Assembly: GCF_018614205.1 (NCBI RefSeq)
Contig: NZ_JAGGOS010000067.1
Coordinates: 1-64,000, forward strand
Direction: 5' to 3'
DNA length: 64,000 bases
Source: Streptomyces sp. ISL-36
GTDB taxonomy: Bacteria > Actinomycetota > Actinomycetes > Streptomycetales > Streptomycetaceae
The notes beneath the pieces were generated by a model. The model made no database searches. It had not been told where the DNA came from and saw only the letters and a program-made list of their open reading frames with translations. A program made the position numbers and the translations under genes. Positions 4,542 through 51,034 of this stretch are shown piece after piece. How positions within the stretch are numbered: position 1 is the stretch's first letter; each line of letters opens with the position of its first letter.

Positions 4542-6071
4542 ATGTCCCGCACCGTCCCCGTCGACGAGATACCGAGGCCCGCGGCGGCCCAGGACGAGGA
4601 GGCCCGGCTCAGAGAGCTCGGATACCAGCCCGTTCTCGCCCGCCGTATGGGCGGCTTCGGCAACTTCGCCATCAGCTTCTCCGTGATCTCCATCCTGTCC
4701 GGCTGCATGACCCTCTACGGCTTCGGCCTGGGCACCGGCGGCCCCGCCGTCATGATGTGGGGCTGGGCGGGCGTCGGGCTCTTCGTGCTCTGCGTCGGCC
4801 TCGCGCTCGCCGAGGTCACCAGCGCCTATCCCACCTCCGGCGCGCTCTACTACATGGCCGACCGGCTCGGTGGCCGCCGCTGGGGCTGGTACACCGGCTG
4901 GCTGAATCTGCTCGGTCTCCTCGGCGCCATCGCCGGCATCGACTACGGCGCGGCCCTCTTCACCGGAGCCTTCCTCAACCTCCAGTGGGGCATCGTGCCC
5001 ACGGCCGGCTCGACCTTCCTGATCTTCCTCGCCATCCTGCTGCTGCACGCCGTGCTCAACCTCTTCGGCGTGCGCCTGGTCAGCGTCCTCAACTCCGTCA
5101 GCGTCTGGTGGCACCTCGCCGGTGTGGCCGTGATCGTCGGCGCCCTCGCGATCGTCCCCGACCGCCACCAGTCCGTCGAGTTCGTCTTCACCGAGTTCGT
5201 CAACGACACCGGCTGGGCCAACCCCTTCTACGTCGCCGCCGTCGGCCTGCTCCTCGCCCAGTACACCTTCTCCGGCTACGACGCCTCCGCCCACCTCTCC
5301 GAGGAGACCTCCAACGCCTCGGTCAGCGCGGCCAAGGGGATCGTCCGGGCGATCTGGGTCTCCTGGATCGCCGGCTTCGCCCTGCTCGCCGGGCTGACCT
5401 TCGCGATCCAGGACTACGCCGGCACACAGAACAGCGCCACCGGCGTCCCGCCCGCGCAGATCCTGCTGGACGCGCTCGGCTCCGGCGGCGCCACCGCCCT
5501 GCTGCTCGTGGTGATCGTGGCCCAGCTCTTCTGCGGCAACGCCGAGGTGGCCGCGGCGAGCCGGATGGTCTTCGCCTTCAGCCGCGACAACGCCCTGCCC
5601 GGCTCGGCGCTCTGGCGCAAGGTCAGCAGCCGTACGCAGACCCCCGTGCCCGCGGTCTGGCTCGCGGTCGGTGTCGCCGCCCTCCTCGCCGTGCCGTCGC
5701 TGTACTCCGCCACCGCGTACGGCGCCGTCACCGCCATCAACGTCATCGGCATCACCCCCGCCTACGCCATCCCGATCTACCTCCGGCTCCGGGCGGGCGA
5801 CCGGTTCACCCCGGGCCCGTGGAACCTGGGCCGCTGGAGCCGGCCGATCGGCTGGACCGCCGTGGTCTGGGTGGCGGTCGTGACGGTCCTCTTCTGCCTG
5901 CCGCAGAAGTCCCCGGTGACCATCGACTCCATGAACTACGCGGTCATCGCGCTCGCCGTCGTCCTCGTGCTCTCCAGTATCTGGTGGTACGTGGCACGCC
6001 GCTCGTACGGCACGCCCTCGGCGTACGGAACCGCGCGCGAGGAGGCGGAGATCGCGGAGGGCATCGTCTGA
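4542..6071 (+). CDS. APC-superfamily amino acid/polyamine permease
   Basis: The 509-residue protein has about 12 hydrophobic segments and the typical cytoplasmic N-terminus LRELGYQPVLARRMGGFGNF, followed by the substrate-contacting first helix with ISFSVISILSGCMTL. The segment VTSAYPTSGALYYMADRLGG is typical of the GABA/choline-type (ACT) branch of the APC superfamily. It likely imports an amino acid, GABA or polyamine by cation symport across the cytoplasmic membrane. The ATG is preceded by CCCGGAGGTACC. It ends convergently with the SDR gene; a hairpin at 6122-6153 lies between. The actual substrate is not identifiable from sequence. Confidence 0.88.
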   Translation: MSRTVPVDEIPRPAAAQDEEARLRELGYQPVLARRMGGFGNFAISFSVISILSGCMTLYGFGLGTGGPAVMMWGWAGVGLFVLCVGLALAEVTSAYPTSGALYYMADRLGGRRWGWYTGWLNLLGLLGAIAGIDYGAALFTGAFLNLQWGIVPTAGSTFLIFLAILLLHAVLNLFGVRLVSVLNSVSVWWHLAGVAVIVGALAIVPDRHQSVEFVFTEFVNDTGWANPFYVAAVGLLLAQYTFSGYDASAHLSEETSNASVSAAKGIVRAIWVSWIAGFALLAGLTFAIQDYAGTQNSATGVPPAQILLDALGSGGATALLLVVIVAQLFCGNAEVAAASRMVFAFSRDNALPGSALWRKVSSRTQTPVPAVWLAVGVAALLAVPSLYSATAYGAVTAINVIGITPAYAIPIYLRLRAGDRFTPGPWNLGRWSRPIGWTAVVWVAVVTVLFCLPQKSPVTIDSMNYAVIALAVVLVLSSIWWYVARRSYGTPSAYGTAREEAEIAEGIV

Positions 6072-13607: not shown

Positions 13608-14141
13608 CTACCGCTCCAGCTCGCTCAGCGCCTGGGTCAGCCACTCCACCCAGAACCGCTCCAGATCGATCCCGCCGCGCAGGACCAGGTGGCGCAGCCG
13701 GTCCGGCTCGCTCTCCCGGCGCTCCGGCGGGAAGTCCCGTACCTCGATCGCCCGGTACTCGTCCAACTGCCGCTGGTGCAGGCCGAGATGGTGCCGCAGT
13801 TCCTCCCGCATGCCCGGCGCGCCGACGACCGCCGCCGCCCGCATGCGCAGCAGCAGTGCCGAGCGCAGCGGTTTGGGGTCCTCGCTCCTCGCCACCCACT
13901 CGGTCAGCTCGGCGCGGCCCGCGGGCAGGACTTCGTACTCCTTCTTCTGCCCACGGGCCGGTGTCGGGGCGGGCAGGGCACGGATGTGCCCCGCCTGCTC
14001 CAGCTTGCCCAGCTCGCGATAGATCTGCTGATGCGTGGCCGACCAGAAGTAACCGATCGACCTGTCGAAACGGCGCGTCAGCTCAAGGCCCGATGAAGGC
14101 TTCTCGAGCAGCGCGGTCAGGATCGCGTGCGGGAGGGACAT
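13608..14141 (-). CDS. PadR-family transcriptional regulator
   Basis: The 177-residue protein has an N-terminal PadR winged helix (LPHAILTALLEKPSSGLELTRRF, HQQIYRELGKLEQAGHI) and a C-terminal Vir-type helical domain with a long coiled segment (RHHLGLHQRQLDEYRAIEV) used for dimerisation. PadR proteins repress transcription and respond to phenolic or other small molecules. It lies 30 bp downstream of fadH on the same strand, so the two are probably cotranscribed; the dyad upstream of fadH (16246-16259) is a candidate target. Confidence 0.87.
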   Translation of the reverse strand: MSLPHAILTALLEKPSSGLELTRRFDRSIGYFWSATHQQIYRELGKLEQAGHIRALPAPTPARGQKKEYEVLPAGRAELTEWVARSEDPKPLRSALLLRMRAAAVVGAPGMREELRHHLGLHQRQLDEYRAIEVRDFPPERRESEPDRLRHLVLRGGIDLERFWVEWLTQALSELER

Positions 14142-48197: not shown

Positions 48198-49925
48198 ATG
48201 AATCTTCCTCTGCCCGACGATGTCACCGAGCTCAAGGAAGTGATCGGGCGCGAGATCTCGGCCCTGCGCGCCGACGTACGCCGTAAGACAGCGGTCAGCC
48301 GGCCCGCACCGATGACCACGGACCGGGCCTCACCCGTACAGAGCACGGCGACCCTCCCGCGCAGGCACGACGGCGCCCTGAGTTCCCCCTGTCTGTGCGG
48401 CACGGACGGAGACGCCCGCGATCCCTGGTCGTGCGTCTGCGCGGCCCTGCCCGCCATCCCCGTGTCGGCGGCGCTCCTCACACCGCTGCGGGACGACAAC
48501 GGCGACGTCGTCGACTTCGTGATCCGGGCAGGCAACCAGATCCGCTCGGTGGAGTGGCTGGAAGCACCCGGCCACCAGGTGGGCCAGCGTTTCATGGAGG
48601 CGCGGCCCGGTGCGGCGGCAAGTGGCCTGCTCGGGGCGCTCGCCGACGTCCTGACGACCGGGCGGCCCATGGACGGCCTGGTCGTCGACTACACGGAGGA
48701 GCGGCTCGGCCGGCTCCACCGCGCCCAGCTGCTGTACTACGCCGCCTCCTGCGGCGGTGAGCTCGTCGCCACCTGGCGCCCCATTCGGAGCCAGGCGGAG
48801 ATGCTGACCGTGGACGCCCAGCATCTCGCGTCCATGGGCTGGGGGCACTGGGACCTGCTGTCGGGAAAGGTGACCTGGTCGGAGGGGCTGAGCCGGATCT
48901 TCCGTACGGAACTGAACATGCCGTGGTCGCTGCAGGAGCTGTGCGACGCGCTGGAGCCCGCCGACACGACGGCGTTCGCCGAGTTCATCACGGCCGTGCT
49001 GGCCGGGGAGGAACCGGCCTGGACCAGGATCCGTTTCCTGGTGCTCGGTGAGGTGCGGACGCTCGACCTGCTCGGGCGGCCGGTCGCCGGCACCGACGGC
49101 CGGCCCTGGGCCGTGCACCTCATCGCCCGCGACCTCACGCCCCAGATGCGCAGCCGACGCCGGCTCGTGGAGACGGAACGCGAGACGGAGCGGCTGCGGC
49201 AGCAGGCGGAGGCGGAACGCCACGTCGCCGCCTCGCTCCGCGAAGCGCTGCTGCCGACGCACTCGCAGGAGCTGGCCGCCAAGGGGCTGACTGTGGCGGC
49301 CGCGTACCTGGCGTCCGAACCTGACTCGGCGGTCGGGGGTGACTGGTACAAGTGCCGTCTGCTGCCGGACGGGCGGGTGCTCGTGGCGATGGGCGACGCC
49401 TGCGGCCACGGGCTCGACGCGGTGGCCCGGATGGCTCAGCAGCGTCACGCGCTGGCGGGTCTGGCCCAGACCGGAGCCTCGGCCGGGGAGATCATGACCT
49501 GGCTGAACGAACTCGTGTGCAGCGACCCCTCGGGCGAGACGGCCACCGTGATCGCCGGCCACATCGACGACGACCGGGTTCTCCACTGGGCCGACGCCGG
49601 GCACCCCGCGCCCGTGCTGCGGCGCGAGGGACGGGCCTTCGCGCTGACCGCGGAGCAGCGCGGACCGTTGCTCGGGGCGTTGGCGGGATACGCGTACGAG
49701 ACCTCCGCGTTCCAGCTCCTCAGGGGCGACCTGCTGGTGCTGTACACCGACGGCATGGTGGAGCGGCGAGGTGAGGACATCAGTCAGGGCATCGAACGCT
49801 TCGCGGCAGCGGTGGGCGCGGCGGCCGGGCTGACTCCGCAGCAGACGATCGACCGGCTGGTGGCGGACCACATCCGGTCGGGGCACGAGGACGACGCCTG
49901 CCTGCTGGCGATCCGGTTCGACTGA
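48198..49925 (+). CDS. PP2C/SpoIIE-family protein phosphatase with PAS-like sensor region
   Basis: The 575-residue protein starts at ATG 48198 after AGAGGTACG. Its N-terminal part contains a Cys-rich tract (CLCGTDGDARDPWSCVCAAL) that may bind metal, followed by a PAS-like region (MGWGHWDLLSGKVTWSEGLS) with a helical linker. The C-terminal domain is SpoIIE-like: AVGGDWYKCRLLPDGRVLVA, MGDACGHGLDAVARMAQQRH, VLYTDGMVERRG and DDACLLAIRF, with the metal-binding Asp. It should remove phosphate from an anti-anti-sigma factor. No anti-sigma or STAS gene is adjacent. Confidence 0.9.
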   Translation: MNLPLPDDVTELKEVIGREISALRADVRRKTAVSRPAPMTTDRASPVQSTATLPRRHDGALSSPCLCGTDGDARDPWSCVCAALPAIPVSAALLTPLRDDNGDVVDFVIRAGNQIRSVEWLEAPGHQVGQRFMEARPGAAASGLLGALADVLTTGRPMDGLVVDYTEERLGRLHRAQLLYYAASCGGELVATWRPIRSQAEMLTVDAQHLASMGWGHWDLLSGKVTWSEGLSRIFRTELNMPWSLQELCDALEPADTTAFAEFITAVLAGEEPAWTRIRFLVLGEVRTLDLLGRPVAGTDGRPWAVHLIARDLTPQMRSRRRLVETERETERLRQQAEAERHVAASLREALLPTHSQELAAKGLTVAAAYLASEPDSAVGGDWYKCRLLPDGRVLVAMGDACGHGLDAVARMAQQRHALAGLAQTGASAGEIMTWLNELVCSDPSGETATVIAGHIDDDRVLHWADAGHPAPVLRREGRAFALTAEQRGPLLGALAGYAYETSAFQLLRGDLLVLYTDGMVERRGEDISQGIERFAAAVGAAAGLTPQQTIDRLVADHIRSGHEDDACLLAIRFD

Positions 49926-50018
49926 CGCCGGCCGTTGCGGCTGACGCGGACCGTTTCGACGCTCGCGGACCGGGCGACATGAACGGGTCGTCGGCGATGT
50001 GTGGCTACGCCAGTACCT

Positions 50019-50055
50019 TGCGGTGCATGACAGTACGTGACTATCATGCACCGCA
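50019..50055. promoter_or_regulatory. PadR operator, 12-bp perfect arms
   Basis: tgcggtgcatga (50019-50030) and tcatgcaccgca (50044-50055) are perfect inverted arms separated by 13 bp. They overlap the start region of the PadR gene, so PadR binding would block its own transcription. The position also includes the alternative ATG codons of that gene. Confidence 0.8.
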
Positions 50056-50444
50056 TGACAAAGGAGCTGTCGGGCGTCGGTGACCAACGGCGCAGTCAGC
50101 TGCTGCGCGGAGTGCTCGACCTCTGCCTGCTGGCTCTGATCGCCGAACGCCCTCGCTACGGCTACGAGTTCGTCGAGGCGCTCAGGGAGAGCGGACTGGA
50201 GCTGGTGAGCGAGGGCAGCATCTACCCGCTCCTCGCCCGGATGGAGCGGGCGGGGCTCGTCGAGTCGTACCGCGCTCCCTCGTCCAGCGGTGGGGCGCCG
50301 CGCAAGTACTACCGGCTGACCGGGGCGGGCCAGGCCGAACTGTCCCGGGGAAGGGCGGTATGGCGGGAATTCGCCACCCAGGCCGGCCGGATCCTCGACC
50401 GCACCGGCCGACCCATCGAACCCACGGGGGGAACGACACCATGA
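50046..50444 (+). CDS. PadR-family regulator
   Basis: The 132-residue protein has LLRGVLDLCLLALIAERPRY, GYEFVEALRESGLELVSEGS and IYPLLARMERAGLVESYRAP, the PadR winged helix. It is of the short PadR type with a brief C-terminal helix. Starts at ATG 50046 or 50055 are both possible; no ribosome binding site is clear, so leaderless translation is possible. Its stop overlaps the start of the next gene (ATGA). The operator at 50019-50055 shows it likely represses the operon. Confidence 0.88.
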   Translation: MHRMTKELSGVGDQRRSQLLRGVLDLCLLALIAERPRYGYEFVEALRESGLELVSEGSIYPLLARMERAGLVESYRAPSSSGGAPRKYYRLTGAGQAELSRGRAVWREFATQAGRILDRTGRPIEPTGGTTP

Positions 50445-51034
50445 CCATCGAGCGCGTACTCGCTGTCTGCCGCAGCAACTGGGAGTACCGGGGCATCGAC
50501 GACACCTCCGTCCGGGAGATGCTCGACGAGCTCACGGCCCACCTGGAGGACGCCGCGGCAGCCGGGCGTTCGCCCAAGGACGTCGTCGGCGAGGATGTCA
50601 CGGCCTTCGCGGCGTCTTGGGCCAGGGCGAGGATGCCGCTGCACCGGCGCGTGCTGAGGATGACCGCCATGGTCTCCTTCATGGCGGGCGTGCTGCTGCT
50701 CTTCTCACACCTCACCCGGTGGACGACCGGCGTGGAGGTCACCCCGGGACGGCTGGCCTTCTGGCTCGGCATCGCGGTCGCCACGGTCGTCCTCGAACTG
50801 CGCCGCGGCTCCCTGGGGCTCGGCAAGGGCTGGCTGGTGGCGCTGGTCGTCGGCCTGCCGGTCGCACTGCTCACCGAGACCCTGCTCGGCGACGAACCGC
50901 TGTTCCGCGTGCCGCTGTGGGCCACGGTGCTGCTCACGCTGCCAGGACTGGCGTACGCCGTCGCCGAACGCAGGGGCGTGGCGGCGGACTTGCGGGGCGG
51001 AGCCGCCTCCGATGACGCGCCGCACCTCAGGTAG
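50441..51034 (+). CDS. HAAS-domain membrane protein of PadR operon
   Basis: The 197-residue protein has an N-terminal helical region (SVREMLDELTAHLEDAAAAG, RSPKDVVGEDVTAFAASWAR) that resembles the HAAS domain, commonly paired with PadR regulators. Four to five hydrophobic segments follow, among them VSFMAGVLLLFSHLT, LAFWLGIAVATVVLEL, WLVALVVGLPVALL and LWATVLLTLPGLAYAVA. It probably acts in a membrane stress response controlled by the PadR protein. Its 3' end overlaps the convergent methyltransferase by 8 bp. Confidence 0.8.
   Translation: MTIERVLAVCRSNWEYRGIDDTSVREMLDELTAHLEDAAAAGRSPKDVVGEDVTAFAASWARARMPLHRRVLRMTAMVSFMAGVLLLFSHLTRWTTGVEVTPGRLAFWLGIAVATVVLELRRGSLGLGKGWLVALVVGLPVALLTETLLGDEPLFRVPLWATVLLTLPGLAYAVAERRGVAADLRGGAASDDAPHLR

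Follow-up and report, generated by a model that had tools for sequence, protein, structure and literature searches.

The closest described relative of the promoter considered here is that of cdPadR1, a PadR-s2 protein of Clostridium difficile R20291, which is reported to be autoregulated via two tandem inverted repeats and to hold its recognition helices about 34 Å apart, for half-sites about 10 bp apart (PMC5050560). The families DUF1700, DUF1129 and DUF1048 have been united as HAAS, and pairs of HAAS and PadR proteins have been proposed as signalling dyads; in 2024 such dyads, made of HAAS and PadR-like winged helix-turn-helix proteins, were put forward as an alternative to two-component systems (PMC11237479). 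In Streptomyces coelicolor, 21% of primary start sites are reported to be leaderless, with a TAnnnT –10 element and the start codon at +1 (PMC4895711). Statements on published systems, here and below, refer to the cited portions of those accounts. The promoter analysed here lies in a 64,000-nucleotide stretch of DNA from Streptomyces sp. ISL-36 (the window), where a PadR gene, padR, stands beside a gene for a HAAS-like protein, as in the proposed dyads (PMC11237479). An earlier note, made from the sequence alone, had described an inverted repeat over the start of padR as its operator, and ‘PadR autorepression operator’ is the best reading of that repeat. It quite probably belongs to two tandem 23-bp PadR operators which are built into the core promoter of the padR–HAAS operon and through which the operon represses itself.

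The sequence layout of the promoter, its conservation and the near-exclusive genomic location of its exact sites are observed directly. As the note had stated, the arms TGCGGTGCATGA (50019–50030) and TCATGCACCGCA (50044–50055) are perfectly inverted over 12 bp around 13 bp, and the span covers the possible start codons GTG 50037, ATG 50046 and ATG 50055. With one mismatch the arms lengthen to 16 nt (15 of 16 pairs) around 5 bp, at 50019–50034 and 50040–50055. A 12-bp repeat alone is unremarkable in a 64-kb window: perfect arms with a spacer of 0–20 number 24 overlapping registers, spread over 9 distinct places, while dinucleotide-shuffled windows hold a mean of 0.76 registers each and 40 of 100 shuffles hold at least one. 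Arms pairing at 15 of 16 positions around exactly 5 bp are found at 2 places in the window and in none of 20 shuffles. Stronger evidence than these repeat statistics is conservation in 47 other promoters. With two 23-bp sites the feature becomes 50012–50062, for which the span first claimed is too short. Its parts are listed below, H1 to H4 being the four half-sites.

50019..50055, no strand: the inverted repeat noted earlier, consisting of the facing parts of sites 1 and 2
50012..50034, no strand: site 1, putative upstream operator, a 23-bp palindrome AGTACCTTGCGGTGCATGACAGT centred on 50023, with the –35 hexamer in its left half, H1
50040..50062, no strand: site 2, putative start-codon operator, a 23-bp palindrome ACTATCATGCACCGCATGACAAA centred on 50051, with the –10 hexamer in its left half, H3, and the start codon in its right half, H4
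50018..50023, plus strand: predicted –35 hexamer TTGCGG, in H1, 18 bp before the –10 hexamer
50042..50047, plus strand: predicted –10 hexamer TATCAT, in H3
50055, plus strand: predicted transcription start, the A of the start codon, after a 7-nt gap from the –10 hexamer and with no Shine–Dalgarno (SD) sequence

Orthologous promoters came from two sources. Searching 199 genomes of the genus yielded 15 orthologues, one of them the window’s own, with the other 14 at 71–85% identity and the next paralogue at 51%; a scan of genome contigs gave 40 more, of which 39 are labelled Streptomyces and one Streptosporangium nondiastaticum. The merged 55 rows represent 48 distinct promoters (seven are identical duplicates), among which the PadR starts of loci L091 and L096 were placed by hand upstream of the match; loci L100–L115 are not counted as orthologues. 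Across these promoters conservation has a sharp left edge at –43 (1.65 bits, against 0.21 at –44), with almost none further upstream, and the conserved block runs from there into the first codons, past 50019–50055 on both sides. Two like palindromes, AnTRTCWTGY-N3-RCAWGAYAnT, are present in 47 of the 48, the block consensus being AnTnTCTTGC-N3-GCAAGRYAnT at –43 to –21 and ACTATCWTGYRCCGCATGACAAA at –15 to +8. Site 1 scores 17.5 to 37.5 bits in 47 promoters and site 2 scores 23.3 to 37.0 bits in all 48; their centres lie 28 bp apart in 40 of 47, 27 in five, 29 in one and 24 in one. When the 23-bp matrix is built without the window, site 2 (35.0 bits) and site 1 (32.2 bits) are the best and second-best matches in the window, and the next position scores 2.4 bits. 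A match at 5987 (2.7 bits) was dropped because it lies inside a 509-aa frame.

Additional sites occur in some loci. L085 carries a strong third site 29 bp further upstream, L010, L011 and L016 carry a weaker one 16 bp up (14–16 bits), within inverted repeats with 19-nt arms, and in L060 and L071 the third site is weaker still. The 19-nt-arm repeats, at –60 to –19 before padR, join site 1 to the third site. Between L010 and L016 these arms differ at several positions, but in each of the two loci they still pair, as though selection or template switching had kept them matched.

From the arrangement of its bases, the operator is probably better described as a tandem pair of 23-bp palindromes, comprising four like half-sites, than as a single 37-bp palindrome. 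The biology proposed in the note is broadly right, palindromic sites at the padR start being conserved and consistent with autorepression; its geometry is probably not. The two-site reading follows from the variable spacing between sites, the promoter that has site 2 alone, the footprint beyond 50019–50055 on both sides and the half-site distances, which are 10 bp within a site and about 18 bp across the 37-bp dyad. A single operator centred on 50037, where a dimer or tetramer would sit on the intervening dyad, is unlikely. It draws support from the pairing of the arms in the window (15 of 16) and in L093 (16), L097 (15) and L098 (14), and from pairing across the dyad (site 2 compared with the reverse complement of site 1, mean 15.49 of 23) that is about as frequent as pairing within site 1 (mean 7.19 of 10) and more frequent than within site 2 (mean 5.57 of 10); like half-sites would, however, yield such pairing anyway. 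The two 3-bp spacers also match across the dyad more than shuffled ones do (21 of 5000 shuffles, relatedness being uncontrolled). Against it stand a spacing that varies from 24 to 29 bp, the lack of site 1 in L095, and facing half-sites about 18 bp apart, whereas the 10 bp within a site is the figure reported for PadR dimers. Runs of at least 11 perfect pairs about the dyad, counted ungapped, which lowers the score of any row that has an indel between its two sites, occur in only 5 of 48 promoters (the window, L078, L093, L097 and L098); the ‘unusually clean’ look that the note had remarked on is a variable property. Covariation does not decide between one palindrome and two sites in these alignments: pairing across the dyad shows none beyond shuffling (568 of 5000 shuffles reach the observed value, and 984 of 5000 with G–U pairs), and the same holds for pairing inside each of the two sites (3935 and 4223 of 5000). 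The latter result, at sites of which site 2 is an imperfect palindrome by the mean given above, slightly lowers confidence in the two-site reading and slightly raises it for the single palindrome.

Comparison of the 48 promoters makes ATG 50055 almost certainly the start of padR. The codon at this position is ATG in every promoter, and GTG 50037 lacks conservation. At 50046, 31 promoters have TTG, 16 have ATG and one has GTG, and codon identity alone does not exclude a start there. The padR message is predicted to be leaderless, with transcription from ATG 50055, because of this invariant ATG, the lack of any SD-like motif within –20 to –4 in all 48 promoters, the TAnnnT that begins at –13 in 47 of them (7% of shuffled upstream regions have one in the range searched) and the match to the layout in S. 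coelicolor. The sequence features of a leaderless gene are found here together, namely TAnnnT, a 7-nt gap to ATG and no SD sequence (47 of 48 and 48 of 48), and the series TTGCGG, 18 bp, TATCAT, 7 nt and ATG 50055 fits the leaderless genes of S. coelicolor (PMC4895711).

Two other explanations of the repeat carry little weight. That it acts as an RNA hairpin, hiding the start codon on a transcript started upstream, is very unlikely. RNA from 50010 to 50090 does fold at –32.6 kcal/mol (z –2.87, with 1 of 200 shuffles as good), but any DNA palindrome folds likewise, and in all 48 promoters there is no SD sequence to mask. Such a hairpin requires a promoter upstream of 50019, yet conservation ends at –43 and the hexamers put the start at 50055; pairing that tolerates G–U shows no covariation (984 of 5000). 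It is scarcely credible that the repeat is a terminator of the upstream gene for a SpoIIE-type phosphatase, which ends at 49925. Although a strong inverted repeat does follow the stop codon of that gene by about 95 bp, it has no T-run and no terminator was found there. A same-strand relative of the phosphatase gene lies upstream in only 1 of 47 loci (L061), while the sites are conserved; five other loci have a distant reverse-strand match.

Within two tandem operators, the half-sites seem from base preferences to double as –35 hexamer, –10 hexamer and start codon. Written in one direction they read AnTNYCTTGC (H1), AnTRYCTTGC (H2), ACTATCWTGY (H3) and TTTGTCATGC (H4). Of 47 promoters, 46 have T at position 6 of H1, compared with 68 of 94 for H2 and H3 together (P 1.6e-4; 0.009 after thinning), which fits the TTG of a –35 hexamer; L095 is missing from these counts, having no site 1. 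At position 3 of H3, 46 of 47 have A, compared with 40 of 94 for H1 and H2 together (P 5e-12; 2e-4 after thinning), which fits the TA of a –10 hexamer, and position 6 of H4 is A in 47 of 47, against 23 of 141 in the other half-sites, which fits the ATG. For the thinned values the tests were repeated on 16 promoters below 85% protein identity. Codon 2 of padR is ACA in 43 of 48 promoters, the remaining five codons not being threonine codons. Elsewhere in the same genes ACA makes up 43 of 356 threonine codons (P 6e-34 against codon 2), and the contrast persists in the set thinned to less than 85% identity (15 of 17 at codon 2, 15 of 114 elsewhere). This bias points to a constraint at the DNA level inside the coding region, where H4 lies.

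The site is, on the genomes scanned, nearly dedicated to the padR–HAAS promoter. Among 392 genomes of the genus, 23 contain its exact form, TATCWTGYNNNGCAWGRYA, at a total of 32 places; a reversed control pattern is found at 2. Thirty of the 32 places precede the padR–HAAS pair (28 with a locus of their own, and 2 that lie 27–28 bp from a checked place). Among the 199 genomes, an exact site is found in 10 of the 15 with an orthologue and in none of the 184 without. In the source genome, of 7.98 Mb, nothing but the two sites described here comes within 2 mismatches of the idealised site; 3 mismatches admit six further places, for a total of 8 matches per strand, while the reversed control has 10. 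None of the 17 other PadR-like matches in that genome (13 of them over the Pfam cut-off) has a comparable site, the best scores being –12.9 to –28.1. It is distinctly unlikely that another regulator mainly binds these sites and PadR is a bystander: 30 of the 32 exact sites precede padR, they occur among the 199 genomes only where a padR orthologue exists, and the adjacency and tandem layout match those of known PadR autoregulators. A wider regulon was rejected, since the source genome has no other strong site and elsewhere only 2 of the 32 exact sites are involved, both at unrelated, leaderless-looking genes. At position 1501 of these two loci, L128 and L135, TACCATGCGGGGCATGATA stands ahead of a frame resembling an antitoxin gene and TATCATGCGGCGCATGACA ahead of one resembling an acetyltransferase gene (both judged by eye); these starts resemble site 2.

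The operon of a PadR gene and a HAAS membrane protein gene, as proposed in the earlier note, is supported: a PF03551 gene overlaps by ATGA with a HAAS/DUF1048-like membrane-protein gene.

50055..50444, plus strand: PadR-family regulator, 129 aa (PF03551, E 5e-23, 81.3 bits against a cut-off of 27)
50441..51034, plus strand: HAAS/DUF1048-like protein, 197 aa, joined to padR by the ATGA overlap and preceded by an SD-like GGGGGAA at 50427–50433

A HAAS-like gene lies downstream of padR in all 48 loci (by tblastn), the coupling of PadR and HAAS-like genes holding throughout. The predicted model of PadR (pLDDT 84.2) has the PadR structures 6abq, 3hhh, 4esb and 5zqh as its best fold matches, 4esb with TM scores of 0.72/0.89 and 41% identity. 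A profile of 41 PadR orthologues, namely the window’s and those of the 40 genome-contig loci, matched 42 distinct solved sequences, headed by PadR entries. The protein has the architecture of PadR-s2, a short winged-helix protein with a single C-terminal helix, in that it has 129 aa and, in the model, a helix at 90–117 after the wing, and like a PadR-s2 autoregulator it has inverted-repeat sites in its own promoter (two in 47 of 48 promoters, one in L095). The alignment of the HAAS-like protein holds 29 members. It left out 12 of the 40 genome-contig loci (L067, L069, L072, L074 and others), where the match did not start at residue 1 or the frame was of 150 aa or less, as well as the 14 orthologues from the 199-genome search. 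At E<=0.01, DUF1048 is recognised in 26 of 29 members and PF22564 HAAS in 7 of 29. In the predicted model, N-terminal helices at 3–16, 21–40, 45–49 and 53–63 are followed by four long helices, which are read as membrane helices. Only two of the fold matches listed, the DUF1048 structures 2o4t and 2o3l, have a probability above 0.4 (0.97–0.99), but their E values are 0.56–1.5. A kink of the third helix at a conserved GxP motif is a feature of HAAS proteins in such dyads; in the window protein residues 42–45 are GRSP (GxxP, not GxP), and A41, G42 and G50 are invariant in the 29 members.

From this arrangement we infer PadR binding, repression, the start point and the HAAS signal as follows. Four half-sites of the motif AnTRTCWTGY form two inverted pairs with centres 28 bp apart, H1 supplying the –35 TTGCGG, H3 the –10 TATCAT and H4, on the complementary strand, the start codon. 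Transcription from ATG 50055 would produce a leaderless padR message; the HAAS cistron, which overlaps padR by ATGA, is preceded by an SD-like sequence of its own. With a PadR dimer on each of the two sites, the –35 hexamer, the –10 hexamer and the start point would be covered and RNA polymerase excluded, and by this exclusion the operon would repress itself. The HAAS membrane protein, in line with the proposal for HAAS–PadR dyads, may sense a membrane or envelope signal and free PadR from the DNA, upon which both proteins would rise. The promoter would then be a dedicated, self-limiting switch of a membrane-sensing HAAS–PadR dyad. This 51-bp operator-promoter carries clear predictions, namely two dimers, a leaderless start at 50055 and induction through the HAAS protein; given a nearly dedicated site and a defined operator-promoter, the input of the dyad could be tested with a simple reporter. 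The locus would also illustrate how a start codon can be recruited into the repressor site of a leaderless gene.

Several observations weigh against this account. TTGCGG is a poor –35 hexamer, and a simple scan detects no promoter of the sigma-70 type. Promoter signals do not explain the C at position 1 of H3 (44 of 47, against 32 of 94), nor the T at position 0 (40 of 47) and the G at position 3 (44 of 47) of H4, which may reflect codons 2 and 3. The matrix, the pattern and the half-site comparisons all derive from the same orthologues and were chosen after inspection of the alignment, and in the Fisher tests related sequences count as independent, a fault that thinning cures only in part. 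Site 1 may be auxiliary, since it is absent in L095, which has site 2 only, shifted in L096, whose sites lie 24 bp apart, and weak (17.5–23.0 bits) in L060, L073, L076, L080–L082 and L088. L095 and L096 are divergent orthologues that keep site 2, and are natural tests of which site is essential. Five of the 15 genomes with an orthologue have no exact match, and two exact sites, in L128 and L135, stand before unrelated leaderless-looking genes; TATCnTG...cATG is partly a generic pattern of leaderless promoters. Finally, the HAAS-like protein of the window falls below the Pfam cut-off for DUF1048 (24.8 against 29.6 bits).

A wider pattern can be put forward tentatively, with rather less than even confidence. 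In HAAS-linked actinobacterial PadR genes, and perhaps beyond, the half-site TATCTTGC could serve as –10 hexamer, as –35 hexamer and, through its mirror copy, as leaderless initiation codon; operator, promoter and translation start would then evolve as one element. PadR paralogues of the genus (15 loci, 42–51% identity) were compared using starts chosen by the analyst among in-frame codons, of which one locus had none. All 14 loci with a start have TAnnnT at –12 to –14 and 12 of them have no SD-like motif, L019 and L022 matching AAGG within the hexamer. Nine loci form a family in which TATCTTGC or TACCTTGT ends five bases upstream of the ATG. Of 16 downstream frames listed, 10 partners were scanned and 8 score as HAAS over the cut-off; one of the 8 belongs to a Chloroflexi locus and the rest to the genus (7 of 9), with no such match at L019 and L022. 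These counts suggest a common design of leaderless PadR–HAAS promoters.

Some single loci may be mentioned beside this pattern. In the family of nine, the starts of L021, L023–L026, L028–L030 and L033 carry GGTATCTTGCATCGC followed by ATGGAACC, or close variants, with no SD sequence, and a HAAS protein comes next in all five loci of this family that were scanned. In L100, from a Chloroflexi metagenome-assembled genome, a PadR gene is followed by a HAAS protein gene (46 bits), and CTACCTTGC-CGC-GCAAGGAT (CTTGC-N3-GCAAG), scoring only 5.1 bits, is centred 53 bases before the PadR match at 2001; the palindromic core is thus similar in a locus from outside the actinobacteria. A second PadR gene of the window, on the minus strand (match 13899–14123), has a short inverted repeat, AATC-TAG-GATT, just before its start near 14141 and TAGGAT seven bases before the ATG, and may be leaderless. 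The PadR gene of L039 (contig C162 of the source genome) has a palindrome, ACATACT...AGTATGT, which runs into the likely ATG start and lies near a –10-like stretch, TATACAT.

Among the systems described, the closest in layout is that of cdPadR1: TATC-N11-GATA here shares its 4-N11-4 arrangement over 19 bp, and the distance between sites is 27 bp there and 28 bp here. The cdPadR1 sites, in contrast, have an AT-rich core and a different sequence and lie upstream of the start codon, and 200 motif matches are reported in that genome, against a nearly dedicated site here (PMC5050560). LmrR of Lactococcus lactis is likewise a PadR-like repressor of its own gene, with multiple dimers proposed on its promoter (PMC4534193). 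It differs in its motif, of the ATGT/ACAT type (PMC3506622, PMC4517056), and in controlling an ABC transporter, the portion of the account cited here mentioning no HAAS partner (PMC4534193). The ATGT-N8-ACAT operator given for LmrR, PadR and LadR (PMC4517056) is not found in the present consensus, AnTRTCWTGY-N3-RCAWGAYAnT; because cdPadR1 departs from it too, it does not appear to define the whole PadR-s2 subfamily. In Listeria, the PadR repressor LltR shares its operon with a DUF1700 membrane protein and regulates chiefly that operon (PMC6624303), and the promoter of LftR contains a partly palindromic site to which LftR itself binds (PMC4517056, PMC6457526); unlike the present locus, both belong to Firmicutes (PMC6624303, PMC4517056, PMC6457526). 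The HAAS–PadR account treats domains and gene neighbourhoods and, in the portion cited, gives no operator or promoter (PMC11237479), and that of the leaderless genes of S. coelicolor, likewise in the portion cited, describes no operator fused with a start codon (PMC4895711). No description of this operator, or of any leaderless PadR operator in Streptomyces, was found among the titles and opening lines of abstracts listed by the literature searches. By analogy, the locus would work like a PadR-s2 autoregulator. PadR autoregulation by two tandem inverted repeats is already known from cdPadR1, as is the proposed HAAS–PadR dyad; what looks new is the sequence of the operator and the way it is fused with a leaderless promoter and a start codon.
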